Assembly: GCF_000159315.1 (NCBI RefSeq)
Contig: NZ_GG669993.1
Coordinates: forward strand, 460,135-524,134
Direction: 5' to 3'
Length of the DNA stretch: 64,000 nt
Source: Lentilactobacillus hilgardii DSM 20176 = ATCC 8290
GTDB lineage: Bacteria > Bacillota > Bacilli > Lactobacillales > Lactobacillaceae
This document shows, one piece after another, positions 9,287-53,670 of this stretch. Below the pieces are notes generated by a model, which saw only the letters and a list, made by a program, of their open reading frames with translations, did no database searches and was not told where the DNA came from. The translations under genes were made by a program, and so were the position numbers. Positions within the stretch are counted from its first letter, which is position 1, and each line of letters opens with the position of its first letter.

Positions 9287-9297
9287 CTCCTTATAGT

Positions 9298-9393
9298 TTT
9301 GCTTAGACTCGCCGAAACGAAGCGCCCCATAAAGGGGGCTTATAGCTTGAACCGAGCGGTTGTAGCTGTGGAAGCCACAATTACAACGTTCTA
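9298..9393 (-). ncRNA. L21 leader (ribosomal-protein autoregulatory leader)
   Basis: The 5' untranslated region between the promoter and rplU contains several complementary segments: TAAGCCCCC pairs with GGGGCGCTT across a short loop, and TTGTAATTGTGG pairs with CCACAGCTACAA. Position and fold match the L21 leader found ahead of rplU in Firmicutes, thought to let L21 repress its own operon. Assignment rests on context and pairing, not on a covariance search. Confidence 0.7.
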
Positions 9394-9814: not shown

Positions 9815-9888
9815 GTCGCAATAGCTCAGCTGGATAGAGCAACGGTCTTCTAAACCGTAGGTCGAGAGTTCGAATCTCTCTTGCGACA
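9815..9888 (+). tRNA. tRNA-Arg (anticodon TCT)
   Basis: A complete 74-nt cloverleaf without encoded CCA. The acceptor stem GTCGCAA/TTGCGAC has 7 bp and discriminator A. The D arm is AGCTCAGCTGGATAGAGC, the anticodon loop CTTCTAA reads TCT (AGA codons), and the T arm contains GTTCGAATC. It stands alone with its own promoter and terminator on the plus strand between minus-strand genes. Confidence 0.97.
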
Positions 9889-10161: not shown

Positions 10162-10419
10162 TTATGACTTAGAACTAAGTTCCCAACCATTATCTAGCAT
10201 CTGATGATATTTCCGACCAACCGGAATCCAAATCTTTTCCTGTAATATTTTTTCCATCGATTCCCAGAATAGTGGGTCTTGGCTCTCCTTCTTTGATAAA
10301 TTGAGTTTCCAATACTTCTGATTTTCAGTTTTTACAATAATGTATGGGAAGAAAACTTTTGTTAACTGAGCCGCCACAACATTTTTAATCAATTTTGTGT
10401 CATCTAATAATTTTTTCAT
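10162..10419 (-). CDS. Hypothetical 85-residue protein
   Basis: Not recognised. The product (MKKLLDDTKLIKNVVAAQL at the N-terminus) is basic, has no signal peptide or membrane span, and is rich in Lys and Trp. The start was chosen at the ATG preceded by AGGAAGG with 8-base spacing, 15 codons inside the longest frame. It is a stand-alone gene with a strong terminator and an unusual promoter region carrying four TTAA motifs at one-turn spacing. This suggests dedicated regulation; the role is unknown. Confidence 0.65.
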   Translation of the reverse strand: MKKLLDDTKLIKNVVAAQLTKVFFPYIIVKTENQKYWKLNLSKKESQDPLFWESMEKILQEKIWIPVGRKYHQMLDNGWELSSKS

Positions 10420-10480
10420 TTGGAATTCCTTCCTAAACTTGTTTAAATTTATTAGTACGATCACAGTATGCCAAAAATAG

Positions 10481-10520
10481 GTTAAACGGACCTTAAAATC
10501 AGTTTAAGTTAGTTTAAATT
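10481..10520. repeat. Helically phased TTAA motif array
   Basis: Four TTAA cores begin at 10482, 10493, 10504 and 10514, that is 11, 11 and 10 bp apart; three are preceded by G or GT and the last two lie in near-identical AGTTTAAGTT/AGTTTAAATT units. They lie 60-100 bp upstream of the 85-residue gene's start and just upstream of a possible TTGGCA-17-TAAATT promoter. One-turn phasing is what a cooperatively bound regulator or bent DNA would show. Confidence 0.5.
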
Positions 10521-10701
10521 ATCTTACCTGTCCTTATATCACTAACACTCACAGTGTCCATTTAACTTTCCCAATAAAAAATGACTCTCGCCTGAATGGC
10601 CATTGATATCAAAATCTAGCTGCTTGCTAATAATCACTTCTTCAATAGAAAATAGTAAACTCCATAAAATACAAATTAACTTGAAAAGTCAATTACATTT
10701 T
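10521..10701. other. Intergenic stretch without a recognised gene
   Basis: About 180 bp of AT-rich DNA between the TTAA array and the dUTPase stop codon. No open frame with start signals, tRNA or clear hairpin terminator was found. Confidence 0.45.
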
Positions 10702-11241
10702 TTAATAATTATTATCCTGTCGTTTTAAATTAATCTTATTTTTATCATTAAAAGTATCTTGAATCTCTTGTTCAGTATAACCAAAATCAACTAAACCAAA
10801 TTTTAGAAAAAGTCGCCAAGAATGATTGAAACTGTCTCCACTGTGATTAAAATAAGCATCAAACAACATGCGCTTCATTGCAAGATACTGTTTATCAAGG
10901 TTATCTTCTTTTTTTAAATGCTTGATCTTCTCAAAATCATCCTGCGACTTAAGAACAAAGTGATTCCAGTTTTTAAGATTCGAAATAAGAAGAAAGAAAT
11001 CCAGTGCATCTACATATTCATAAAGAAGCGTTTCCCGAGGCGTCTTGCCCGCATCACTCTTTCCACGATGCGTTTTCCAAACTTTAAACCATTCCGATGT
11101 ATTAGCCATTTCTGCCAATTCAACATCTAATGAAACAAAGGCATTTTTTAACCGGGCTTCGTTAGACCAGAAAATCTGTTTTTTTTGTTCAATTTGACGA
11201 TTTAAATAAACTGATGAAGAAACTAATGCCTGCAGATCCAT
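10702..11241 (-). CDS. Dimeric (all-alpha) dUTP diphosphatase
   Basis: A 179-residue dUTPase of the all-alpha NTP pyrophosphohydrolase superfamily, unrelated to the trimeric dut family. The metal-binding pattern is visible: E41-x2-E44 in ELAEM, then E75-x2-D78 in EYVDALDFF, with the family's WFKVWK between. It hydrolyses dUTP to dUMP, keeping uracil out of DNA and feeding thymidylate synthesis. This type is common in lactobacilli and their phages. It stands alone on the minus strand; the start has AGAGGTG just ahead. The enzyme class is clear, the exact substrate preference is inferred. Confidence 0.85.
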   Translation of the reverse strand: MDLQALVSSSVYLNRQIEQKKQIFWSNEARLKNAFVSLDVELAEMANTSEWFKVWKTHRGKSDAGKTPRETLLYEYVDALDFFLLISNLKNWNHFVLKSQDDFEKIKHLKKEDNLDKQYLAMKRMLFDAYFNHSGDSFNHSWRLFLKFGLVDFGYTEQEIQDTFNDKNKINLKRQDNNY

Positions 11242-11391
11242 ATTGACACCTCTTGTATTCTTAATAAATCATGTCGCTTTTAAATAAATAATCAAAATGC
11301 AAATCAGAATTGATCACATTTGAATTATTGAGTTTAAATGAATTTTACAACTTTTCATTCGCCCAAGAACACACTTGATTTTTTAAATAAT

Positions 11392-12330
11392 CTACCCAAA
11401 AATAAATTGATTAGATAAAATTTCGAGTTGTTTTTGGTTATTTAAATACCATTTTTTGATAAATGGATAGTCTAACAATAAATATAACCAATTTTCATTT
11501 TGTTGGTCATCACGAATAGTCGCACCCCATTTTGGTCGATTACCATTTTGATTTGCATCATACACAGTCATCTTAGTACCATTTCCCAAAGTTAATGAAG
11601 CACCACCATTATCTTCAGCCATTAACACAAAATGATTCTCTGCTGATTTAACAAAAAGCTCATCCATGACATCCTCAGACAATGCACCGGCAGCAAACTG
11701 ATAGAATTCACCATTAACACCGTCCAAAACATTAAAGTCAATCTTAAAACCAAAATTTTCTTTAAGAATAGCCGCAGCCTTTGTTAGTAATTCCAGTGCA
11801 TTTTTAATGGCATCAATTTCGAGTCCTTCCAAGTCAACAACAAAATACTCAATTAAAGAAGCACCATGAAACATTAATTCTTTATTTTTTAAATTTAAAT
11901 AAAAAAGTGGACGATTATTCAAAGTTGGTCCGAAAAAGAAGCCATCCGAATTCTTAGTTGATTTTGTAAATGTAAATGTTTGATCACCCAATGAATCGAA
12001 TTTACATAGAAGTTTTTGAACTCTTTGTGGATTACTAATCCGAAAATTATTTTCAATTCCAGATAATGAAAGCAGCCGCTCAAAGAAAATAAGCTGCACA
12101 TCCTCATCAGAAAACTGATGTGGAAAGGTTACAAAATCTGAATTCAACTTAAAATTCGTTAGCGAAACGGCCGCCGATAATAAACTCTGACCGTCAGTGG
12201 TTTCACTCAGCGTATGAAAAGCTTGTAAGTATTTAGAGCCATTATCCAACCCGTTTTGTACGGAATCACTATAGTTTGCCAGTAACTCGTTTGTGGTAAT
12301 TGCTTTTTCTTCTGTTTCATTACTCACCAT
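11392..12330 (-). CDS. Unrecognised 312-residue protein, second gene of a two-gene operon
   Basis: I do not recognise the family. The protein (start MVSNETEEKAITTN) is soluble, acidic and rich in Phe, Leu and Asn, with mixed alpha/beta character and no signal peptide, membrane span, Walker motif or cysteine cluster. A helical N-terminal third is followed by strand-rich segments (PLFYLNLKNKELMFHG; GASLTLGNGTKMTVYD). Its start lies 11 bp inside the upstream coiled-coil gene, so the two are probably translationally coupled and may act together. A shared N-terminal flavour (NELLANYSDSVQNG here, EKMQYLNDLNDSVKNG there) is visible but weak. Confidence 0.7.
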   Translation of the reverse strand: MVSNETEEKAITTNELLANYSDSVQNGLDNGSKYLQAFHTLSETTDGQSLLSAAVSLTNFKLNSDFVTFPHQFSDEDVQLIFFERLLSLSGIENNFRISNPQRVQKLLCKFDSLGDQTFTFTKSTKNSDGFFFGPTLNNRPLFYLNLKNKELMFHGASLIEYFVVDLEGLEIDAIKNALELLTKAAAILKENFGFKIDFNVLDGVNGEFYQFAAGALSEDVMDELFVKSAENHFVLMAEDNGGASLTLGNGTKMTVYDANQNGNRPKWGATIRDDQQNENWLYLLLDYPFIKKWYLNNQKQLEILSNQFIFG

Positions 12331-13201
12331 CACTCACCTGCGATTCCTTAGAAAGACTTTGGAGGTATTTTGTGTAAAGATTATTATTATTTTCAATGAA
12401 GGCATCGAAGCTTCCAAAGGTTGCTCTAATATTTTGCTTTTCCAAAGACAAAATAGTCTCTTCCTTCGATAATGCTAAAATTTTGTTTTCGTTTTCTTTG
12501 ATTGTTGAACGACCGCCTGTTGCTTCCTCATCAATTTGAGTTAGTTTTAACATTTCATCATTTAAACGTTGTCGTTCCTCTTTTACTTTTCCTGCTTCCC
12601 AAGGCATCGGTGATTTTTCTTGGTTCTCTTTTAACTGTTCCCGAATCTCTTCCTTACGTTTATCACGTTGATCTTGTTCGCTTATTAATTTAGTAATTCT
12701 TTCATTCTCATCACCCAATTTTTGCATTGTATCGTCATTCACGCGACGGTTCTCAGCTTCAAGTTGAAATGATTTTGATAACATTTGATATGCATTGTCG
12801 TCGAAATTAAAACGAACATTAATTGGATCAAGTTCACCAAACATACGATGATCCCACCAATTCCCAAAATAAATGTGAAATTTACCTAATTCATACTCAT
12901 GATAATAAAAGAATGGATATGTAGCCCCCAAATAATCAATCAGCTTATTACTCAAATGATGACTCAACTGAGCAGTTAAATCTGATGCTAGGCCAAAATG
13001 GTCCGTTTGAGATTTCTCAGTCTCTTCTGTCGCCAATTCATTTGCATAGCGGTTTGGATCCATTAATTGGTAAATTTGTAAATCATCACCATTTTTAACA
13101 GAATCATTTAAATCGTTTAGATACTGCATCTTCTCATTCAATGCAGAGGAGAGTATCGTATCATTTTGACTGAATTGATCCGTTTCCATTTGTCTTTCCA
13201 T
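12320..13201 (-). CDS. Unrecognised coiled-coil protein, first gene of a two-gene operon
   Basis: A 293-residue soluble protein, not recognised. The N-terminal 150 residues contain an aromatic-rich segment (YPFFYYHEYELGKFHIYFGNWW). Residues about 150-265 form a long charged coiled coil (heptad-like runs of E, K, L, Q, R). The coiled coil may attract automatic SbcC or SMC labels, but no Walker A, Walker B or ABC signature is present. The start was set at the ATG with GAGG 7 bp ahead. It is separated from glnA by the glnA terminator and its own upstream region. Confidence 0.7.
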   Translation of the reverse strand: MERQMETDQFSQNDTILSSALNEKMQYLNDLNDSVKNGDDLQIYQLMDPNRYANELATEETEKSQTDHFGLASDLTAQLSHHLSNKLIDYLGATYPFFYYHEYELGKFHIYFGNWWDHRMFGELDPINVRFNFDDNAYQMLSKSFQLEAENRRVNDDTMQKLGDENERITKLISEQDQRDKRKEEIREQLKENQEKSPMPWEAGKVKEERQRLNDEMLKLTQIDEEATGGRSTIKENENKILALSKEETILSLEKQNIRATFGSFDAFIENNNNLYTKYLQSLSKESQVSDGE

Positions 13202-13309
13202 AATATAGCCTCGTTTTTCCCCGTTATTTATATAATCAATGTTATCTGAAAAATGTAGATAAATAAAGACCAAACGTAATTATTTCGTAATAATTTATAA
13301 TTTTGAGAT

Positions 13310-22742: not shown

Positions 22743-22869
22743 TACTCCTTGCCATGAATTCAATTCTATCAAATTTCTATTACAAAAACTAGAACTGTTG
22801 GCCAATCTTTAACTTCTTATGATATTCTAAATATTGACATTTATTTTTTTGAGAAAAGGAAGTTCAAAA

Positions 22870-25500
22870 ATGAAATCAAAGCGTTATCCTTTAATACTGT
22901 GCTTTTTGATTCCAATCATTGTCACAGTTGGGTACTTTATCTTCAGACATTTTGCACCGTTTGGTAATTCCTCAATATTGACAGTTGATATGGGGCAGCA
23001 ATACATTGATTTTTTTGCTTACTACCGAGATACGTTACTCCATAATCCCAGCGGTATTTTGTATTCCTTCGCAAAGGGACTGGGCGGCGATATGTTTGGA
23101 ACTTGGAGCTATTATCTGATGAGCCCGGTCAATCTGTTGATTTTACTATTCCCTATTTCAATGTTGCCAAGTGTTTTAGCACTTATGACAATTTTGAAAT
23201 ATGGATTGGCTGGCTTAAGTTTCGGTTATTTTCTTCAAAAAAAATATCAAGCAACCGACTGGCCTGTCATTGGCTTTTCAGCTTCATACGCATTAATGGG
23301 CTGGATGGTTGCCAACCAATTAAATATGCTTTGGATAGATGCAGTCATTTTGCTTCCAATCATTTTTCTTGGAATTGATAATATCCTCAAGCACCAATCA
23401 ACTAAACTGTACATAATCAGTTTTACAGCCATGCTTATTATTAATTACTACATGGGCTGGATGGTTGCCATATTTGTGAGCGCATATATGGTGACTTTCG
23501 GTATCGCAAGGGCTTTACCTACTTCTTATTCATATGGAAAAATATTCTATAGATGGATCAAAGCCTCACTAATTAGTGGGATTTTATCAGCTTGGATCCT
23601 AATTCCAACTTTTTTCTCTTTATTGACGAGCAAAACCAATTATTCAAAAAATGAATTTCGAGTGCGTTTCGAATATAATCCGCTTGATATTCTCGGCAAA
23701 TTTATAAATGGTTCATTTGATTTTAAACAACTGCCAAACGGTACCGCCAATATTTTTGTTGCCAGCATCATCATCATTTTGTTTGCTTATTACTACCTCT
23801 CACCAACAATTAAGGGACGGCTTAGAATCGCCAGCTTTGCCCTAACTGTCTTTTTTGTGCTTTCGATGTGTTTCCAGCCACTCGATCTTTTCTGGCACGG
23901 CATGCAGTTGCCGGTTTGGTACCCATATAGATTTTCATTTATTTTCTCATTCTGGATGATTTTAACCGCTGTTGAAGCTTTTAAAGACATTTTGACCAAT
24001 GGTCTTCATTGGAAAACTTTTATTGGCAGTACACTGATTATTTTAATTGGCATGATTTACATTGGTACAAAAATAAAATCATTTGAATACTTAAAACCAG
24101 AAAACTATGTTTGGGGATGGATTTATTTAATCTTGAGCATCGGATTAATCGTCTTTTATGGTTTATATCGCAAAAATATACTGCTTTCAATCGCAATGGC
24201 TATTTTAATGACCGGTGAAATGAGCCTAAACTTTGTCAACTCGCTTAATAATATTTCGTACTTAAATAATAGTGATTACACAAAATTCGCCTCTATTACC
24301 AGACCACTTGTGGATAAAATTAAACAATCAGACAAGGGGTTTTATCGAACAGGAGAAACCTTCTCCAGGACCAAAAATGATGCCCTAACAGCCGGCTTTA
24401 ACGGTGGTTCTATTTTCTCTTCGACATTGGAGTCGGCAACTTCAAATTTCTTTGGAAATATCGGCCAACCTAATGGAGATGCCTACGTATTCTATTCCAA
24501 TGGCACAATGTTTACCGATTCGCTTTTATCCATGAAGTATTGGATGAATGAACGTCCGGTTACAATAAGAACAAGCCAAAAAACGATGCCTCAATTTTTA
24601 AGCACGCTCACAAGCAAACCGGATTTGAGTAAATACGACCTGACTTCTCAAACAAAGTTAACAAATACCTACAAGAATCCATATGCTCTTCCTCTAGGCT
24701 TCGTATCACCCGAAAACAGTCTAAAAACAACTGTTGTTCCAAATAATCCGATCACATATCAAAATCAATTGGCTCAGCAACTCGATCCTAAAATCGGCGA
24801 CCTCTTCAAGTCAGCAAACTATACCAACGTTTCATATCATAATATTTATCCGGTTTTGGACTTGGATAATGCCGTCCTTCGAAAGAAAAATATGATGGAA
24901 CAGTCTTACGTAACAATTAAGGTGCCAATCGAAAAGAACACTTCTTATTACATGACAATGGGGCCAAACATCTCAAACACGCAGTTATCAGTGTTGGTTA
25001 ATGGTAATAGTCTGGTTCAGTTTAGGCCCGCTAAAAAAACCGTAGTCGCAAATATTGCCACTGGTGGTACTGCAAATGACACGATTAACGTTAAATTCTA
25101 TGCAAACGCAAATGATGTTTGGTTACAAGATGTTAAACTTTACAAAGTAAATGATCAAAAGATTGCCAACTTTGCAAAAGATCTAAAAAAATCACCTTAT
25201 AAAATCGACAGATGGTGTAATCATAAATTTACTGGCACTGTTAACGTTAAAGCAAAGCAACAAGCCCTCACAACAACTATTCCTTATTCGAAGGGATGGC
25301 ATGTAAAAGTAGATAACCATTCGGTGACCCCCAAAAAATGGGCTAAAATGTTTATCTACGTACCAGTCTCAAAGGGAACCCATCATGTGACGTTTACCTA
25401 TTGGCCACAAGGGCTGGGCATTGGTGTAACCATCTCTTTGATTGGCGTATGTTTAATCATCGGGGAATATTACTATAACAAGAACAAAAAAGTTATTTAA
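22870..25500 (+). CDS. yfhO: YfhO family multi-pass membrane protein
   Basis: An 876-residue GT-C-type membrane protein with about 12-14 hydrophobic spans. The spans cover roughly residues 8-480 plus one at the extreme C-terminus, around a large extracytoplasmic domain (about 490-840). Family traits include VDMGQQYIDFFAYYRD in the first loop, KGLGGDMFGTWSYYLMSP, and PYRFSFIFSFWMI. YfhO of Bacillus is needed to glycosylate lipoteichoic acid; the sugar acceptor here is inferred. The start at 22870 follows AAAGGAAG. It is monocistronic and ends at a bidirectional terminator. Confidence 0.92.
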   Translation: MKSKRYPLILCFLIPIIVTVGYFIFRHFAPFGNSSILTVDMGQQYIDFFAYYRDTLLHNPSGILYSFAKGLGGDMFGTWSYYLMSPVNLLILLFPISMLPSVLALMTILKYGLAGLSFGYFLQKKYQATDWPVIGFSASYALMGWMVANQLNMLWIDAVILLPIIFLGIDNILKHQSTKLYIISFTAMLIINYYMGWMVAIFVSAYMVTFGIARALPTSYSYGKIFYRWIKASLISGILSAWILIPTFFSLLTSKTNYSKNEFRVRFEYNPLDILGKFINGSFDFKQLPNGTANIFVASIIIILFAYYYLSPTIKGRLRIASFALTVFFVLSMCFQPLDLFWHGMQLPVWYPYRFSFIFSFWMILTAVEAFKDILTNGLHWKTFIGSTLIILIGMIYIGTKIKSFEYLKPENYVWGWIYLILSIGLIVFYGLYRKNILLSIAMAILMTGEMSLNFVNSLNNISYLNNSDYTKFASITRPLVDKIKQSDKGFYRTGETFSRTKNDALTAGFNGGSIFSSTLESATSNFFGNIGQPNGDAYVFYSNGTMFTDSLLSMKYWMNERPVTIRTSQKTMPQFLSTLTSKPDLSKYDLTSQTKLTNTYKNPYALPLGFVSPENSLKTTVVPNNPITYQNQLAQQLDPKIGDLFKSANYTNVSYHNIYPVLDLDNAVLRKKNMMEQSYVTIKVPIEKNTSYYMTMGPNISNTQLSVLVNGNSLVQFRPAKKTVVANIATGGTANDTINVKFYANANDVWLQDVKLYKVNDQKIANFAKDLKKSPYKIDRWCNHKFTGTVNVKAKQQALTTTIPYSKGWHVKVDNHSVTPKKWAKMFIYVPVSKGTHHVTFTYWPQGLGIGVTISLIGVCLIIGEYYYNKNKKVI

Positions 25501-26016: not shown

Positions 26017-26493
26017 CTATTTAACTTCCAAAATTTTTACTTTCATATCACCAGCGGGAATATGAATAACTACCTCTTCATTTAAGCGGTGTCCTAAAAG
26101 TCCCTTGGCAATTGGTGAATCATTTGAAATTTTGCCAGACATTGGATCAGCCTCAGCAGCCCCAACAATCGTATATGTTTCCGGTTCCTCATCAGGGAGT
26201 TCTTTAAATGTCACAGCTTTCCCAACAGTAACCTCGTCCTTGTCACTGTCATGAGAGTCAATAATCTGTGCATATTGAATCATATGCTCAATTGTCGTAA
26301 TTCGACTCTCTAACATACTCTGCTCATCTTTTGCTGATTCATACTCGGAGTTTTCCGATAAATCACCATAACTTCGAGCAATTTTAATTCTTTCAACCAC
26401 TTTTGGTCGTTGATTTACCTTCAAATCCTCCAATTCTTTTTGTAACTTGTCCCGACCTTCTGCGGTCATTGGATATGATTCTTGTTCAGCCAT
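26017..26493 (-). CDS. greA: Transcription elongation factor GreA
   Basis: GreA, 158 residues, rescues backtracked RNA polymerase by stimulating transcript cleavage. The N-terminal antiparallel coiled coil (about 1-78) carries [18 protein letters not shown] and the acidic tip motif [15 protein letters not shown]. The C-terminal FKBP-like domain ends [29 protein letters not shown]. The udk pseudogene lies just upstream. Confidence 0.97.
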
Positions 26494-26517: not shown

Positions 26518-27202
26518 TTAAATTGTTGAATCAAAATTCTGTTTGATTTGTTCACTGCCACGACTCTTTAAAATCGAGCGCATTTTGGTTGTTAACAGAT
26601 CAATTGCAACTTGGTTCTCGCCACCCTCAGGCACAATGATATCTGCGTAACGCTTAGTCGGTTCAACAAACTGATGATACATTGGTTTAACCGTTGTCAA
26701 ATACTGATGAATAATGCTGTCTAATGAACGGCCGCGTTTCTTAGTATCCCGCTCAATACGGCGAATCAGTCGAATATCATCGTCTGTATCGACAAATACT
26801 TTAATGTCCATTAAATCACGTAATCGCTCATCGTCAAGTATTAAAATGCCATCAAGAATAATAACTTCTCGAGGATCCTGATGAATGGTTTTTTTACTTC
26901 GAGTAAATTGATTATAATCGTATACCGGCGTATACCGGTTTTTCAATCGCTTGATACTTTAGAAGTGACTTCAGCTGTTTAACCAATAAATCATAGTCAA
27001 AAGCCATCGGATGATCGTAGTTAACCCGTTTTCGCTGCGCCATTGTCATCTCATCTTGATCTTTGTAATACGAATCCTGCTGCAAGATCATGATTGAATA
27101 GTTTGATAACTCATCAAATATTTTTCGGCTAACGGTTGTCTTACCACTTCCCGAGCCACCAGTGACACCAATCACAACCGGTTTTTTTGCTGGTTCTGTC
27201 AT
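26518..27202 (-). pseudogene. udk: Uridine kinase, frameshifted
   Basis: Uridine/cytidine kinase of the pyrimidine salvage pathway, split into two frames. The N-terminal frame (27202 to a stop at 26912) holds the P-loop GVTGGSGSGKTT and QQDSYYKDQ, then runs off frame after AIEKPVY. The C-terminal part reads on as [25 protein letters not shown] and the Arg-rich lid DTKKRGRS. Deleting one copy of the 10-bp tandem duplication at 26919-26938 restores one 224-residue frame through [10 protein letters not shown], the usual Udk size. As given, the gene cannot make a full kinase. A TTG at 26946 could start the C-terminal piece, but that piece lacks the ATP site. Confidence 0.93.
26919..26938. repeat. 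10-bp tandem duplication inside udk
   Basis: CGTATACCGG occurs twice in direct succession (26919-26928 and 26929-26938). The insertion of one unit shifts the udk frame by +1. Confidence 0.97.
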
Positions 27203-27231: not shown

Positions 27232-28350
27232 TTAATTATTTGAAGCATGTTTAGCAATTTGCTGTTGATGTTCTTCGTACGTTTTCGAATAATATACTTT
27301 CCTGGTCTTGGTATTTGCAACAAAGTATAAATAATTTTTTGAACGATCAAGTGGATGAAGTAATGCTTGAACAGAGCTGATACTTGGACTATCAAAAGGT
27401 CCAGGGCCAAAGCCTGTATATTTATATAGATTATAAGGAGAGTTACTCTGAAGATCCTTAGTTGTCAGTTGTTTATTATTACGATGAATGGCATACAACA
27501 CGGCGACATCAGACTGAAGCGGCATGTTAATGTCGATTCTGTTCAATAACACGCCTGACATCTTACGACGATCTGTCTGATTAACCCCTTCCCGCTCAAT
27601 TAGAGAAGCCAGTGTCATAAATTGCTGAACGGTCAATTTAGTCTTTTTAATTTGTTGATAGTGAGGCGCTAATACTTGATTAGTTTTGGCAACCATCTGA
27701 TTAACAAGAGACTTAAGTGACGTATTCTTCTTAACTTCATAAGTTGCTGGATACAAATATCCTTCAAGCCGGTATCTGACTTGCTTTGCTTTCATAGCAG
27801 AACCCAATAACTTAGGATAAGATTTTTCAAGCTGTTCCATAAATGCTTGATCTTTCATCACACTAATAAAGTTTTGCTTCGAAAAATCTGTCGTTAAAGA
27901 AACCTGAGTAGCAATTTGATCAATATTTGCTCCCTCGCGAACCAAAACCTTTCCTTTAGTACTTTGGATTGGCTGATCACTGCCACCTTTTTGAAGCTGT
28001 TTAGCAATTGTTTTCAAACTCATCGCTGGTTTCAACTGGTAATAGCCAGCACGAAACTCACTCATGTTATTGGATTTAACATAGTAATCAAAAACCATCC
28101 CACTCTTTACAACTTTCTTGTTCTGCAAGATTGAGCCAATCTGTTTATTGGATGCCCCAAGTGGGATATGAACCTGGGTAACGTTTGTATTCTGCGGATT
28201 CATTGGTTTCAGGGCCTCTTGAAAATACCGATAACCAAGAAAACTAATGGACACCGCCAGAATAATTAAAATCGCAATTACGGAAATAATGATTTTTCGC
28301 CCTAAACTACGGTTGGGTTTGGGGGTCCGTTCATTTGAGTTGTTACTCAT
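27232..28350 (-). CDS. mltG: Endolytic transglycosylase MltG (YceG-like)
   Basis: MltG, 372 residues, cleaves nascent glycan strands and is thought to terminate peptidoglycan chain growth. A cytosolic N-terminus of about 15 residues precedes one membrane span (about 16-38); the extracellular part has a LysM-like region and the YceG catalytic domain. The catalytic Glu lies in MTLASLIEREGVNQTDRR, and the conserved MPLQSDVAVLYA and SPYNLYKYTGFGPGPFDSPS follow. GGAGGAGC precedes the start. It lies upstream of udk, a frequent order in lactobacilli (mltG-udk-greA). Confidence 0.95.
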   Translation of the reverse strand: MSNNSNERTPKPNRSLGRKIIISVIAILIILAVSISFLGYRYFQEALKPMNPQNTNVTQVHIPLGASNKQIGSILQNKKVVKSGMVFDYYVKSNNMSEFRAGYYQLKPAMSLKTIAKQLQKGGSDQPIQSTKGKVLVREGANIDQIATQVSLTTDFSKQNFISVMKDQAFMEQLEKSYPKLLGSAMKAKQVRYRLEGYLYPATYEVKKNTSLKSLVNQMVAKTNQVLAPHYQQIKKTKLTVQQFMTLASLIEREGVNQTDRRKMSGVLLNRIDINMPLQSDVAVLYAIHRNNKQLTTKDLQSNSPYNLYKYTGFGPGPFDSPSISSVQALLHPLDRSKNYLYFVANTKTRKVYYSKTYEEHQQQIAKHASNN

Positions 28351-30809: not shown

Positions 30810-31859
30810 TTAGTTACCCCTCTTATCAAATTGATCTAAGAATCGAACATCATCAAGATAGAAATCCCGAATATCATCGACGCCGTATTTCAACATTGCA
30901 AAACGGTCAGGGCCAACACCAAATGCAAAGCCACCATACACTTTCGAATCTACACCGGCCATTTCCAAAACATTTGGATGAACCATTCCGGCACCCAAAA
31001 CTTCGATCCAACCGGTATGCTTGCAGACATCGCATCCCTTACCCATACAGTTAAAACAGGTAACATCAACTTCCACAGATGGCTCCGTGAATGGAAAGTA
31101 ACTCGGCCGAAGGCGAATATCAAACTTATCACCGAAAATCTTTTGCGCCATTGTAATAAGTGTTCCTTTAAGATCAGCCATCGTCACGTGACGGTCGATG
31201 ACCAATCCTTCAACTTGATGGAATTGATGCGAATGAGTAGGATCGTCAGTATCGCGACGATAGACGATTCCTGGTGAAATCATTTTCAAAGGACCCTTTG
31301 AAAAGTCATGCTTTTCAAGTGCCCTAGCCTGCATTGGAGATGTTTGAGATCGCATTAAAAACTCTTTACTTAAATAAAAAGTATCTTGCATATCACGAGC
31401 GGGATGGTTTTTAGGTAAGTTCATCATTTCAAAATTATATTTATCAGACTCAACCTCAGGGCCTTGCAGTACTTGATAGCCCATTCCTAAAAACAAATCA
31501 ACAAACTCATCAATGATTTGCTGAATCACATGGGGCTGACCTTGTGCAACAGGCTTTCCCGGTAAGGTCACGTCAATTGTTTCAGCTGAAAGCTGCTTAT
31601 TTAGTTCAGCATCTTCAAGCTTTTGACGACGTTCTGCAACCGCTTGAGTAATCGCATCACGAATTTTATTTGCATAACTACCAACTTCAGGACGGTCTTC
31701 CACAGGCAAGTCTTTAATGCCGCGCAAGGCAGCAGTGATTGGTCCTTTCTTACCAAGCAGATGAACCCGAATCTCGTTTAGCTTCTTAAGATCAACGGTT
31801 GAATCAATATCCGTTAAACCATTTTGTTTAATTTCTGTTAATTTATCGCGTAACGACAT
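30810..31859 (-). CDS. pheS: Phenylalanyl-tRNA synthetase alpha subunit
   Basis: PheS, 349 residues, the class II catalytic subunit. The N-terminal coiled-coil arm (1-90) is followed by motif 1 ([14 protein letters not shown]), motif 2 ([21 protein letters not shown]) and motif 3 ([18 protein letters not shown]). A cysteine-rich insertion reads [17 protein letters not shown]. The start MSLRDKL follows GGAGGGAA; the longer frame upstream would read into the T-box leader. Confidence 0.98.
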
Positions 31860-31926
31860 GGTTTCCCTCCAAATATTTTTTATTGCGTCAAAAACAAAGT
31901 CAATAACTATTTCGTCAGCAAAATAA

Positions 31927-32165
31927 AAGCACAAAAAAAGCCCCGTCCATCAAGGGACGAAGCTTCGCGGTACCACCCTAATTTGTCACTAAAAAATGAC
32001 ACACTTAAGAATCATTAACGGTGACTACCGGAAAATTTTTGTTAATATTAACTCCCATTTTCTGCTCGAAAAATGAATTCGTACAACCAATTTCTCTGTT
32101 CACACCAACCACAGAGTCTCTAAAAAAATTAATTGCCTACTGCCTTTTTCTCAAACGCATTTACT
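31927..32165 (-). promoter_or_regulatory. T-box leader controlling pheST (tRNA-Phe sensing)
   Basis: The conserved T-box sequence AGGGTGGTACCGCG lies at 31966-31979 (minus strand), followed by a terminator GTCCC-TTGAT-GGACGGGGC then TTTTTTT. Upstream lies a stem I region with a candidate specifier UUC (Phe) in the ACGAATTCA segment. Uncharged tRNA-Phe would stabilise the antiterminator and switch on pheST. This accounts for most of the 342-bp gap between pheS and the HxlR gene. Confidence 0.93.
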
Positions 32166-40122: not shown

Positions 40123-41256
40123 TTAATGAAGAATGATTGGGTGTTTATAAAAATCCTGATGTGCGCCATTAACCATCTCGATTAACATCCCAGCCTTAAA
40201 GTCCAAATAAACAAACTTTTTTGCAACTTCCTGATTCACCTTGGAGATCATTGGCAACTCTAAATCATTTTTAATTTGATTCAAATATCGTCTCCCTTGA
40301 CGCGTACACCCTAGCAAACGAATATACTGAGGATTAACCAGCATTTCAGATGAAGTTACATGTAACAGCACGTAACAGCACAAACGCTGAATCCTAGTGT
40401 AAGTATAACGCTTTGTTTTCACAAATTGTAAAAATTGCGAGAATGTTTCAGATTCAATTGCCGCTTGTTTCAGGCGATATTCAATTCCCTCAGTCATTTG
40501 ATATATCGAATGCAGTGTATCAATAGGTGCTTCAATAAGTTCAAATCTTAACAACGGCCAAAATTGTTCCCAATCAATCACTTTAGCTGTTGAAAAGGTT
40601 TGCCAGGAAGATTCAGGTACAAATTTTCGAACAATATCGAAATTCCCATTTCTCAGCTGATCCCTAATTGCAGAAGCGCTAGATATTAAACCCGAACTTA
40701 GTTGATGATCGTTATGTGCACTTCCAACTCTTTTAATGGGCACCAGATGCAATGGAGAGCCTATCAACATGTTTGCATTAGCATATCCAAAAGCCAATAT
40801 ATCATTGGGTTTATCAATTCGAATACCGGTTCTGTTATATAAATATTCTTGAAAAATTGAGGCATATGGCCGATTAAACTGTTTAAAGGAGTCGTCTTTC
40901 TTAGGTTGGTTATTAATTAATTTTTGATAATCAATCTCCGGTGTTTCAGCCCCAAAGGCCAGCCAATCACATTTCATAGCGGCTACAAGTCTAACGGCCC
41001 CTGCCGAAAAAATATGTGATGGCTGAACAGCCGCATAAAACGGCAATTCAATCACCACGTCCACTCCCGTTTCAAGTGCAGCTAGTGCTCGAGTCCATTT
41101 GTCATACATAGCCGGTTCACCTCGTTGCAGCCAGTTACCACTCATTACCGCAACGGTGACATCTGCACCGGTTTTTTTCTTTGCTTGTGTCATCTGGTAA
41201 AGGTGCCCATTATGAAACGGATTGTATTCTGAAATAATGCCGACTGCTTTAAGCAA
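40123..41256 (-). CDS. tmcAL: tRNA(Met) cytidine acetate ligase (TmcAL family)
   Basis: A 377-residue nucleotidyltransferase-fold protein (formerly YlbM/DUF795) that in Bacillus makes N4-acetylcytidine at the wobble position of elongator tRNA-Met from acetate and ATP. The HxGH-type motif is in GIISEYNPFHNGHLYQM (about 6-22), with MSGNWLQRGEPAMYDKWTRA and the SSASAIRDQL motif later. It starts one base after the methyltransferase gene ends. Function is by homology. Confidence 0.92.
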   Translation of the reverse strand: MLKAVGIISEYNPFHNGHLYQMTQAKKKTGADVTVAVMSGNWLQRGEPAMYDKWTRALAALETGVDVVIELPFYAAVQPSHIFSAGAVRLVAAMKCDWLAFGAETPEIDYQKLINNQPKKDDSFKQFNRPYASIFQEYLYNRTGIRIDKPNDILAFGYANANMLIGSPLHLVPIKRVGSAHNDHQLSSGLISSASAIRDQLRNGNFDIVRKFVPESSWQTFSTAKVIDWEQFWPLLRFELIEAPIDTLHSIYQMTEGIEYRLKQAAIESETFSQFLQFVKTKRYTYTRIQRLCCYVLLHVTSSEMLVNPQYIRLLGCTRQGRRYLNQIKNDLELPMISKVNQEVAKKFVYLDFKAGMLIEMVNGAHQDFYKHPIILH

Positions 41257-46858: not shown

Positions 46859-47026
46859 GGTGCTTCACCTCCAAATAATTTGAAAAAGCAGAAAAGTGGC
46901 GGGTACGCAATGCACCCGCCACCATTAAAGAACCTAGTTGAACAGGTTCTTACTCGATATCATGCCCAGCAAAATAATTTTACTAAGGCGAGAAGCGGGT
47001 TGCCTCTGCTTTCATGTCAACTTAAA
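46859..47026 (-). promoter_or_regulatory. L20 (infC operon) leader
   Basis: The infC 5' leader carries the conserved AAAGCAGAGGCAACCCGCTT segment of the Firmicute L20 leader, further paired regions (AAGAACCTGTTCAACTAGGTTC), and a strong terminator GTGGCGGG-TGCATTGCGTA-CCCGCCAC plus TTTT at 46892-46922. L20 binding in this leader stops transcription in Bacillus. Same layout here; regulation inferred. Confidence 0.85.
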
Positions 47027-52835: not shown

Positions 52836-53670
52836 GACGATCACCGTGAATCACCTGACAATTTGGGCAAAAATGTGTCCCCCTTTGGGCCAGTTTGATT
52901 TTTTCAATAGGTGTACCACACCTAAGACAAGGTTCTCCCTGTCGACCATAGACGTTTAAATGATTTTGAAAATTGCCAGCTTCGCCATAAGCATTGGAGT
53001 AGGAATGAACAGTAGTCCCGTGACCATCAATTGCCCTTTTGATTTCATCAATAATACTTTTACGGAGTAATTTGAGTTCTACCACTGATAGTGTATTGAC
53101 AGGCTGCTTAGGGTTGATTTTGCTTAACCAAAGCACCTCATCGGCATAAATGTTTCCCAAGCCGGCAATATTACTCTGATCCAAAAGAAACGGCTTGACC
53201 AGCTTTTTACTTTTACCAAATATTTTTCTCATGTAATCTAAGGTTAAGTCCCTTTCAGTCGGCTCAGGACCTATTGTTTTTAATCCAGCCACAGTCAGTT
53301 CATGCCCGGTGTCAACCAAGTTCATTCTACCGAATTTTCGCGTATCATTATATCGAAGCTGACGCCCATCGGTTAAATGAAAAACAATATGAGTGTGCTT
53401 GCTTAGAGGTGTTCCTTCAGGCTCAACATCGTACTTTCCTTCCATTCGAAGGTGGGATACAATTGTTAATCCATTGTTAATCCGAATAAATAAATATTTA
53501 CCCCGGCGATCAATTTTTTTAATGATCTGATTTTTGAGTGCGTTTGTGAAATCCTCAGGTGGTAAATTAATCATTTTAGGATATAACACATCTACCGTCC
53601 GAATTTGACTTCCTGCAACCAGTTCGGTCAGGCCCCTTCGAACAGTTTCAACTTCTGGTAATTCAGGCAT
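52828..53670 (-). CDS. mutM: Formamidopyrimidine-DNA glycosylase
   Basis: MutM/Fpg, 280 residues, removes 8-oxoguanine and other oxidised purines. The catalytic N-terminus MPELPEVETV (Pro2, Glu3), the lysine in the GKYLFIR segment and the C-terminal zinc finger (CLRCG ... HFCPNCQ, about 245-270) are all present. The conserved helix-two-turn-helix SNIAGLGNIYADEVLW lies near residue 170. It lies between polA and coaE, the typical lactobacillar order. Confidence 0.97.
   Translation of the reverse strand: MPELPEVETVRRGLTELVAGSQIRTVDVLYPKMINLPPEDFTNALKNQIIKKIDRRGKYLFIRINNGLTIVSHLRMEGKYDVEPEGTPLSKHTHIVFHLTDGRQLRYNDTRKFGRMNLVDTGHELTVAGLKTIGPEPTERDLTLDYMRKIFGKSKKLVKPFLLDQSNIAGLGNIYADEVLWLSKINPKQPVNTLSVVELKLLRKSIIDEIKRAIDGHGTTVHSYSNAYGEAGNFQNHLNVYGRQGEPCLRCGTPIEKIKLAQRGTHFCPNCQVIHGDRHE

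Follow-up and report, generated by a model that had tools for sequence, protein, structure and literature searches.

A 10-bp tandem duplication and a broken uridine kinase frame in a Lentilactobacillus genome: probably a recent loss-of-function allele

Does a Lentilactobacillus genome whose udk gene is read in two frames still make a uridine kinase and, if it does not, what kind of event split the gene and how is its loss tolerated? The gene lies in a window of 64 kb (the whole stretch of DNA that was analysed) within a 662-kb contig of a draft genome of 2.72 Mb and 113 contigs. The initial annotation had placed the break at an exact 10-bp duplication, and this was confirmed: on the minus strand, the udk frame changes at a tandem pair of exact copies of the unit CGTATACCGG, leaving two udk frames (Table 1). 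The two copies are identical and their borders show no microhomology. The N-terminal fragment reads through KPVY into five out-of-frame residues and then a TAA stop. The true udk start is preceded by AAAGGAAA, while inspection by eye of the bases before TTG at 26946, the listed start of the C-terminal fragment, showed no Shine-Dalgarno-like sequence. The source genome is close to L. farraginis and L. raoultii, its nearest named records, at 93% and 92% over the udk C part. The rejoined gene had been predicted to encode 224 residues, which is the length of the intact Udk of a relative.

Table 1. Coordinates of the duplication, the udk fragments and the flanking genes in the window.
Feature	Position	Strand	Basis or remark
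Exact tandem duplication, 10-bp unit, two copies	26919..26938		Match run at lag 10 exactly 10 bases long
udk N-terminal fragment, 96 aa, P-loop GGSGSGKTT	26912..27202	-	ORF listing, profile match, tblastn
C-terminal fragment of udk, open over 142 aa, TTG start in ORF listing	26518..26946	-	Profile match, tblastn
Overlap of the two udk frames, 35 bases	26912..26946	-	
Presumed greA-like transcription elongation factor gene, intact, downstream of udk	26017..26493	-	
Presumed mltG-like gene, intact, upstream of udk	27232..28350	-	

Both fragments resemble uridine kinases. They matched the profiles NF004018 (uridine kinase) and TIGR00235 in complementary positions, the N part covering positions 4-89 and the C part positions 86-208 of the 210 of NF004018. 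The C part scored 197.8 bits against NF004018, above the cut-off of 180, and 182.6 bits against TIGR00235, below the cut-off of 220.3; the N part, at 119.8 bits (NF004018) and 107.3 bits (TIGR00235), was below both. Thus a uridine kinase cut-off was passed by one part alone in a single case, the C part against NF004018. In L. farraginis (L027) and L. raoultii (L028) the ortholog is encoded in one frame, and each part of the gene in the source genome matches its own stretch of the family. Unlike these orthologs, the gene studied here is split by the duplication, neither part is a complete enzyme alone, and no continuous frame carries the P-loop together with the C-terminal part.

Comparison with close relatives had been proposed as a check, and its outcome was uniform. 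A match to the C part was found in 23 of 24 Lentilactobacillus genomes including the source (22 of the 23 others), the one miss being a genome that is 86% complete. At all 22 other loci the break site reads as a single uninterrupted KPVYDY stretch without the repeat. The frame is therefore broken in the source genome at a site where the 22 other orthologs read are intact, one of them (L022) being broken elsewhere. That case is Lentilactobacillus sp. Marseille-Q4993 (L044, 2723-3393, the same locus as L022), whose own udk break lies further upstream, in an A-rich run before NYDHP. It would be a second, independent break in the genus, and is possibly an error, since that genome is also a draft.

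Apart from the duplication, both halves had been described as intact and the mutation as recent. The comparison of coding divergence is in keeping with this. The dN of the N part was 0.112 to L. farraginis and 0.079 to L. raoultii (83.9% and 89.7% identity), and that of the C part was 0.039 and 0.049, respectively. Eight other genes of the window gave 0.019-0.259, and the four adjacent ones 0.019-0.093, so that the N-part value to L. farraginis is slightly above the adjacent genes and inside the range of all eight. Since dS was saturated or undefined (1.26-3.63; undefined in three rows of the comparison), the word recent refers here to the lack of further decay only. With so few amino-acid changes in both parts, the break, if real, would be recent, and at most a very recent event would fit. 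In the same terms, udk has apparently been under purifying selection until recently, or is so still if the break is an artefact.

How often such repeats arise by chance was estimated with Markov copies. With 20 copies in each case, exact tandem repeats with units of 10-30 occurred at a mean of 0.05 per first-order copy of the window, and those with units of 10-60 at a mean of 0.4 when 304 kb were modelled at third order. The actual 304 kb held four with a unit of at least 10, three in the window and one in a 240-kb sample. Three of the four sit within long open frames, and the udk repeat is the only one without a spanning frame; a repeat is therefore no proof of an event in itself. What makes the udk repeat meaningful is the frame change combined with its absence from relatives. 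The other two of the window, at 40362-40381 (10 bp) and 53462-53483 (11 bp), lie in intact frames that they do not break, in genes which we take to be tmcAL-like and mutM-like. With units of 8 or 9, five more exact repeats were found in the sample, and one of these is without a spanning frame (L150, 19320-19338, unit 9, a multiple of three). As for the relatives, with units of at least 10, the genome taken to be L. farraginis had none in 70.9 kb and that taken to be L. raoultii one in 80 kb, with a unit of 12 and within an open frame. A genome-wide tendency to such repeats, or frequent mis-joins at short repeats, was rejected, as there are four in 304 kb and three of them lie within open frames.

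Other split genes were searched for by tblastn of six-frame ORFs of at least 90 aa of L. farraginis and L. raoultii against the window. Matches were obtained for 120 of 138 and 91 of 115 ORFs, and eleven matched more than one frame. By eye, these eleven comprised two belonging to udk, four explained by a domain common to pheT and a paralog, three antisense or overlapping, and two at a gene start at 22.7-25.5 kb. A second split gene at 22.7-25.5 kb was considered and rejected, as the extra matches precede the likely start codon. By our reading, udk would be the sole sense gene of the window that is split with respect to the two relatives. In the L. farraginis draft, the homolog of window positions 22834-25500, a large membrane-protein gene (L138, 1788-4430), is itself in pieces in different frames, which represents either a broken gene or a draft error.

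Several further features of the window were recorded. A T-box leader (31950-32164, minus strand, 122.6 bits) lies upstream of the frame 30810-31934, presumably a pheS-like gene, and Rfam leaders of ribosomal proteins L21 and L20 were found at 9295-9371 and 46885-47017, both on the minus strand. A tRNA gene at 9815-9888 (plus strand) is followed by a few frames at 10162-13273 that could not be named by eye, the whole forming a possible small island.

The reading that we favour, with a probability of about 75%, is that of a recent, ordinary loss-of-function allele of udk, taken to be a dispensable gene, in one Lentilactobacillus species. Duplication of the 10-bp stretch in tandem would shift the frame by one base, so that translation stops at the TAA after the five out-of-frame residues. 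The first piece keeps the P-loop, with over half of the enzyme missing; in the second piece no translation start is evident, and no Udk activity is to be expected. The loss would be tolerated through de novo synthesis of pyrimidines and through uridine passing via uracil, by a hydrolase or phosphorylase and then Upp. This account takes the base sequence to be right, the protein to be inactive and the bypass to be operating, and we infer each of these.

The first of these three points is at stake in the main alternative, in which the true gene is unbroken and the second copy arose in sequencing or assembly, for example because contig ends with a 10-base overlap were joined unmerged. This is an unlikely explanation that nevertheless carries appreciable weight. 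The assembly is a draft in many contigs, and strong conservation of both udk parts is what an intact gene would give. According to the excerpt available of Cooley and Wright (PMC11017572), many frameshift pseudogenes are assembly errors. The fragmented membrane-protein gene of the L. farraginis draft also illustrates that frame breaks in drafts occur in the genus. Against an artefact, the window contains no N, sits inside a large contig and, by eye, has no other split sense gene across 64 kb, which together suggest that the sequence is locally good. Moreover, an open frame spans each of the three remaining repeats of unit length 10 or above, and a 20-base repeat would be shorter than usual assembly k-mers.

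Among 395 Lactobacillaceae genomes at least 95% complete, with at most seven candidates scored per genome, a Udk match was found in 353 and none in 42, the latter counted without recheck. In 13 of the 353 genomes, as counted from the match table, all matches were weak (E weaker than 1e-7). In three of these (G118, G210 and G335) the matching frames are 233-340 aa long and 21-27% identical, and are taken as probable pantothenate kinase-like proteins. Twelve family genomes including the source were picked by eye: udk was in two adjacent pieces in three (the source, G000, together with G021 and G371), a single strong match in six and weak only in three. Among the matches listed, at least two other Lactobacillaceae genomes thus have a broken udk, a count from which no rate is derived. 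G371, a one-contig genome from another genus of the family, has udk in two frames (L115, 1471-2116), with the change near query residue 175 in the MYxQFIEP region. As in the source, the N and C parts of udk in Marseille-Q4993 and G371 occupy separate frames and are otherwise well preserved; unlike in the source, the breaks are at other codons and the duplication described here is absent. Within the limits of this survey, loss or breakage of udk seems to have occurred more than once or twice in Lactobacillaceae, which argues that the gene is dispensable and that the source is not a special case. Among the papers listed by searches aimed at udk in lactobacilli, no title or abstract opening concerned its loss.

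The tolerance of the loss would depend on the remaining pyrimidine routes. The initial annotation had expected uridine salvage to fall to another kinase. PF00485 matched the two udk pieces, a type I pantothenate kinase and nothing else in the source genome; the third match was considered as a second uridine kinase and rejected, as it scores 425.4 bits against the pantothenate kinase cut-off of 235. Kinase-free routes are present instead. In the excerpt available of PMC13328217, uracil is converted into UMP via Upp and uridine via Udk. The upp gene was found (302.8 bits, cut-off 208.35), as was a pyrimidine-nucleoside phosphorylase (Y_phosphoryl, 561.9 against 409.05). Three nucleoside hydrolases of PF01156 are present, one of which scores as RihC (455, cut-off 382) and has a match to a nucleoside transporter some 1.4 kb away, the other two being under every equivalog cut-off listed. 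Two PF01048 proteins correspond to DeoD and an MTA/SAH nucleosidase and not to uridine phosphorylase. The de novo route was searched for through one gene, pyrB for aspartate carbamoyltransferase, which was found over its cut-off (283.2 against 236.95). With hydrolase or phosphorylase and upp genes, uridine can reach UMP through uracil and no other kinase would be needed. By the same known pathways, fluorouridine would be turned into fluorouracil and then by Upp into FUMP, so the resistance to fluorinated uridines that had been predicted need not follow. The tetrameric cytidine deaminase, the only deaminase type searched, was not found in the source genome, although 10 of the 14 controls were positive for it; the source may for this reason salvage cytidine less well.

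The exact short repeat also raises the matter of reversal, and contraction of a two-copy 10-bp unit makes reversion plausible. A reading built on this is that lactobacilli undergo recurrent selection for switching udk off and that exact short duplications are a reversible off state and not decay; both this and an accompanying benefit, for instance uridine being directed into ribose catabolism or toxic nucleosides being avoided, are very improbable. A shade less probable still is udk as a reversible on/off (contingency) locus, in which two copies correspond to the off state, with slippage or recombination bringing the gene back in part of the population. Exact tandem repeats can contract, and udk frames are broken at other sites in two other Lactobacillaceae genomes. 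Reversible frameshift silencing and reversible indels are described in other bacteria, as far as the excerpts of two reports go (PMC8339072; PMC10710837). With the frameshift scars and contingency loci of these excerpts, the udk locus shares a short insertion that shifts the frame and is in principle reversible, but its repeat is missing in relatives and no sign of switching is seen. There are only two copies, and a repeat tract conserved and variable among relatives, as in a contingency locus, was not found: the repeat is present in 0 of the 22 other genus loci, so it is not conserved as a switch. Each of the three breaks has a site of its own, as expected of random loss, and a mixed population is something that an assembly cannot reveal.

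It is hardly credible that udk still works, either by ribosomal +1 frameshifting in the overlap or by assembly of the two fragments. By frame arithmetic, a +1 shift within the 35-base overlap would give a near-normal protein, and both parts are conserved. However, no familiar +1 shift motif was recognised by eye, no Shine-Dalgarno-like sequence was seen before the TTG, and the local DNA hairpin does not stand out, since 26 of 200 shuffles fold at least as well.

The origin of the repeat was considered separately. A hairpin-driven event was rejected, as the local DNA fold was not clearly better than the same shuffles (z -1.26). The slip that had been suggested is not supported, with a match run of exactly 10, no flanking microhomology and this ordinary hairpin. 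That the copies are the target-site duplication of an excised insertion sequence and not a replication error is scarcely conceivable: exact 10-bp direct copies with borders free of microhomology would suit it, but excision leaving both target copies is rare in bacteria, and the two genome matches to PF01609 (DDE_Tnp_1 transposases), the sole insertion sequence family searched, were both under the cut-off.

If the loss-of-function allele of udk is real, Lactobacillaceae would have lost uridine kinase independently once more, here with a gene that has yet to decay, and the case would illustrate that a salvage gene can disappear where no replacement kinase is seen in the genome. The genome keeps the hydrolase or phosphorylase and Upp route, and the relevance of the loss would lie mainly in the annotation and the metabolic models of the species.
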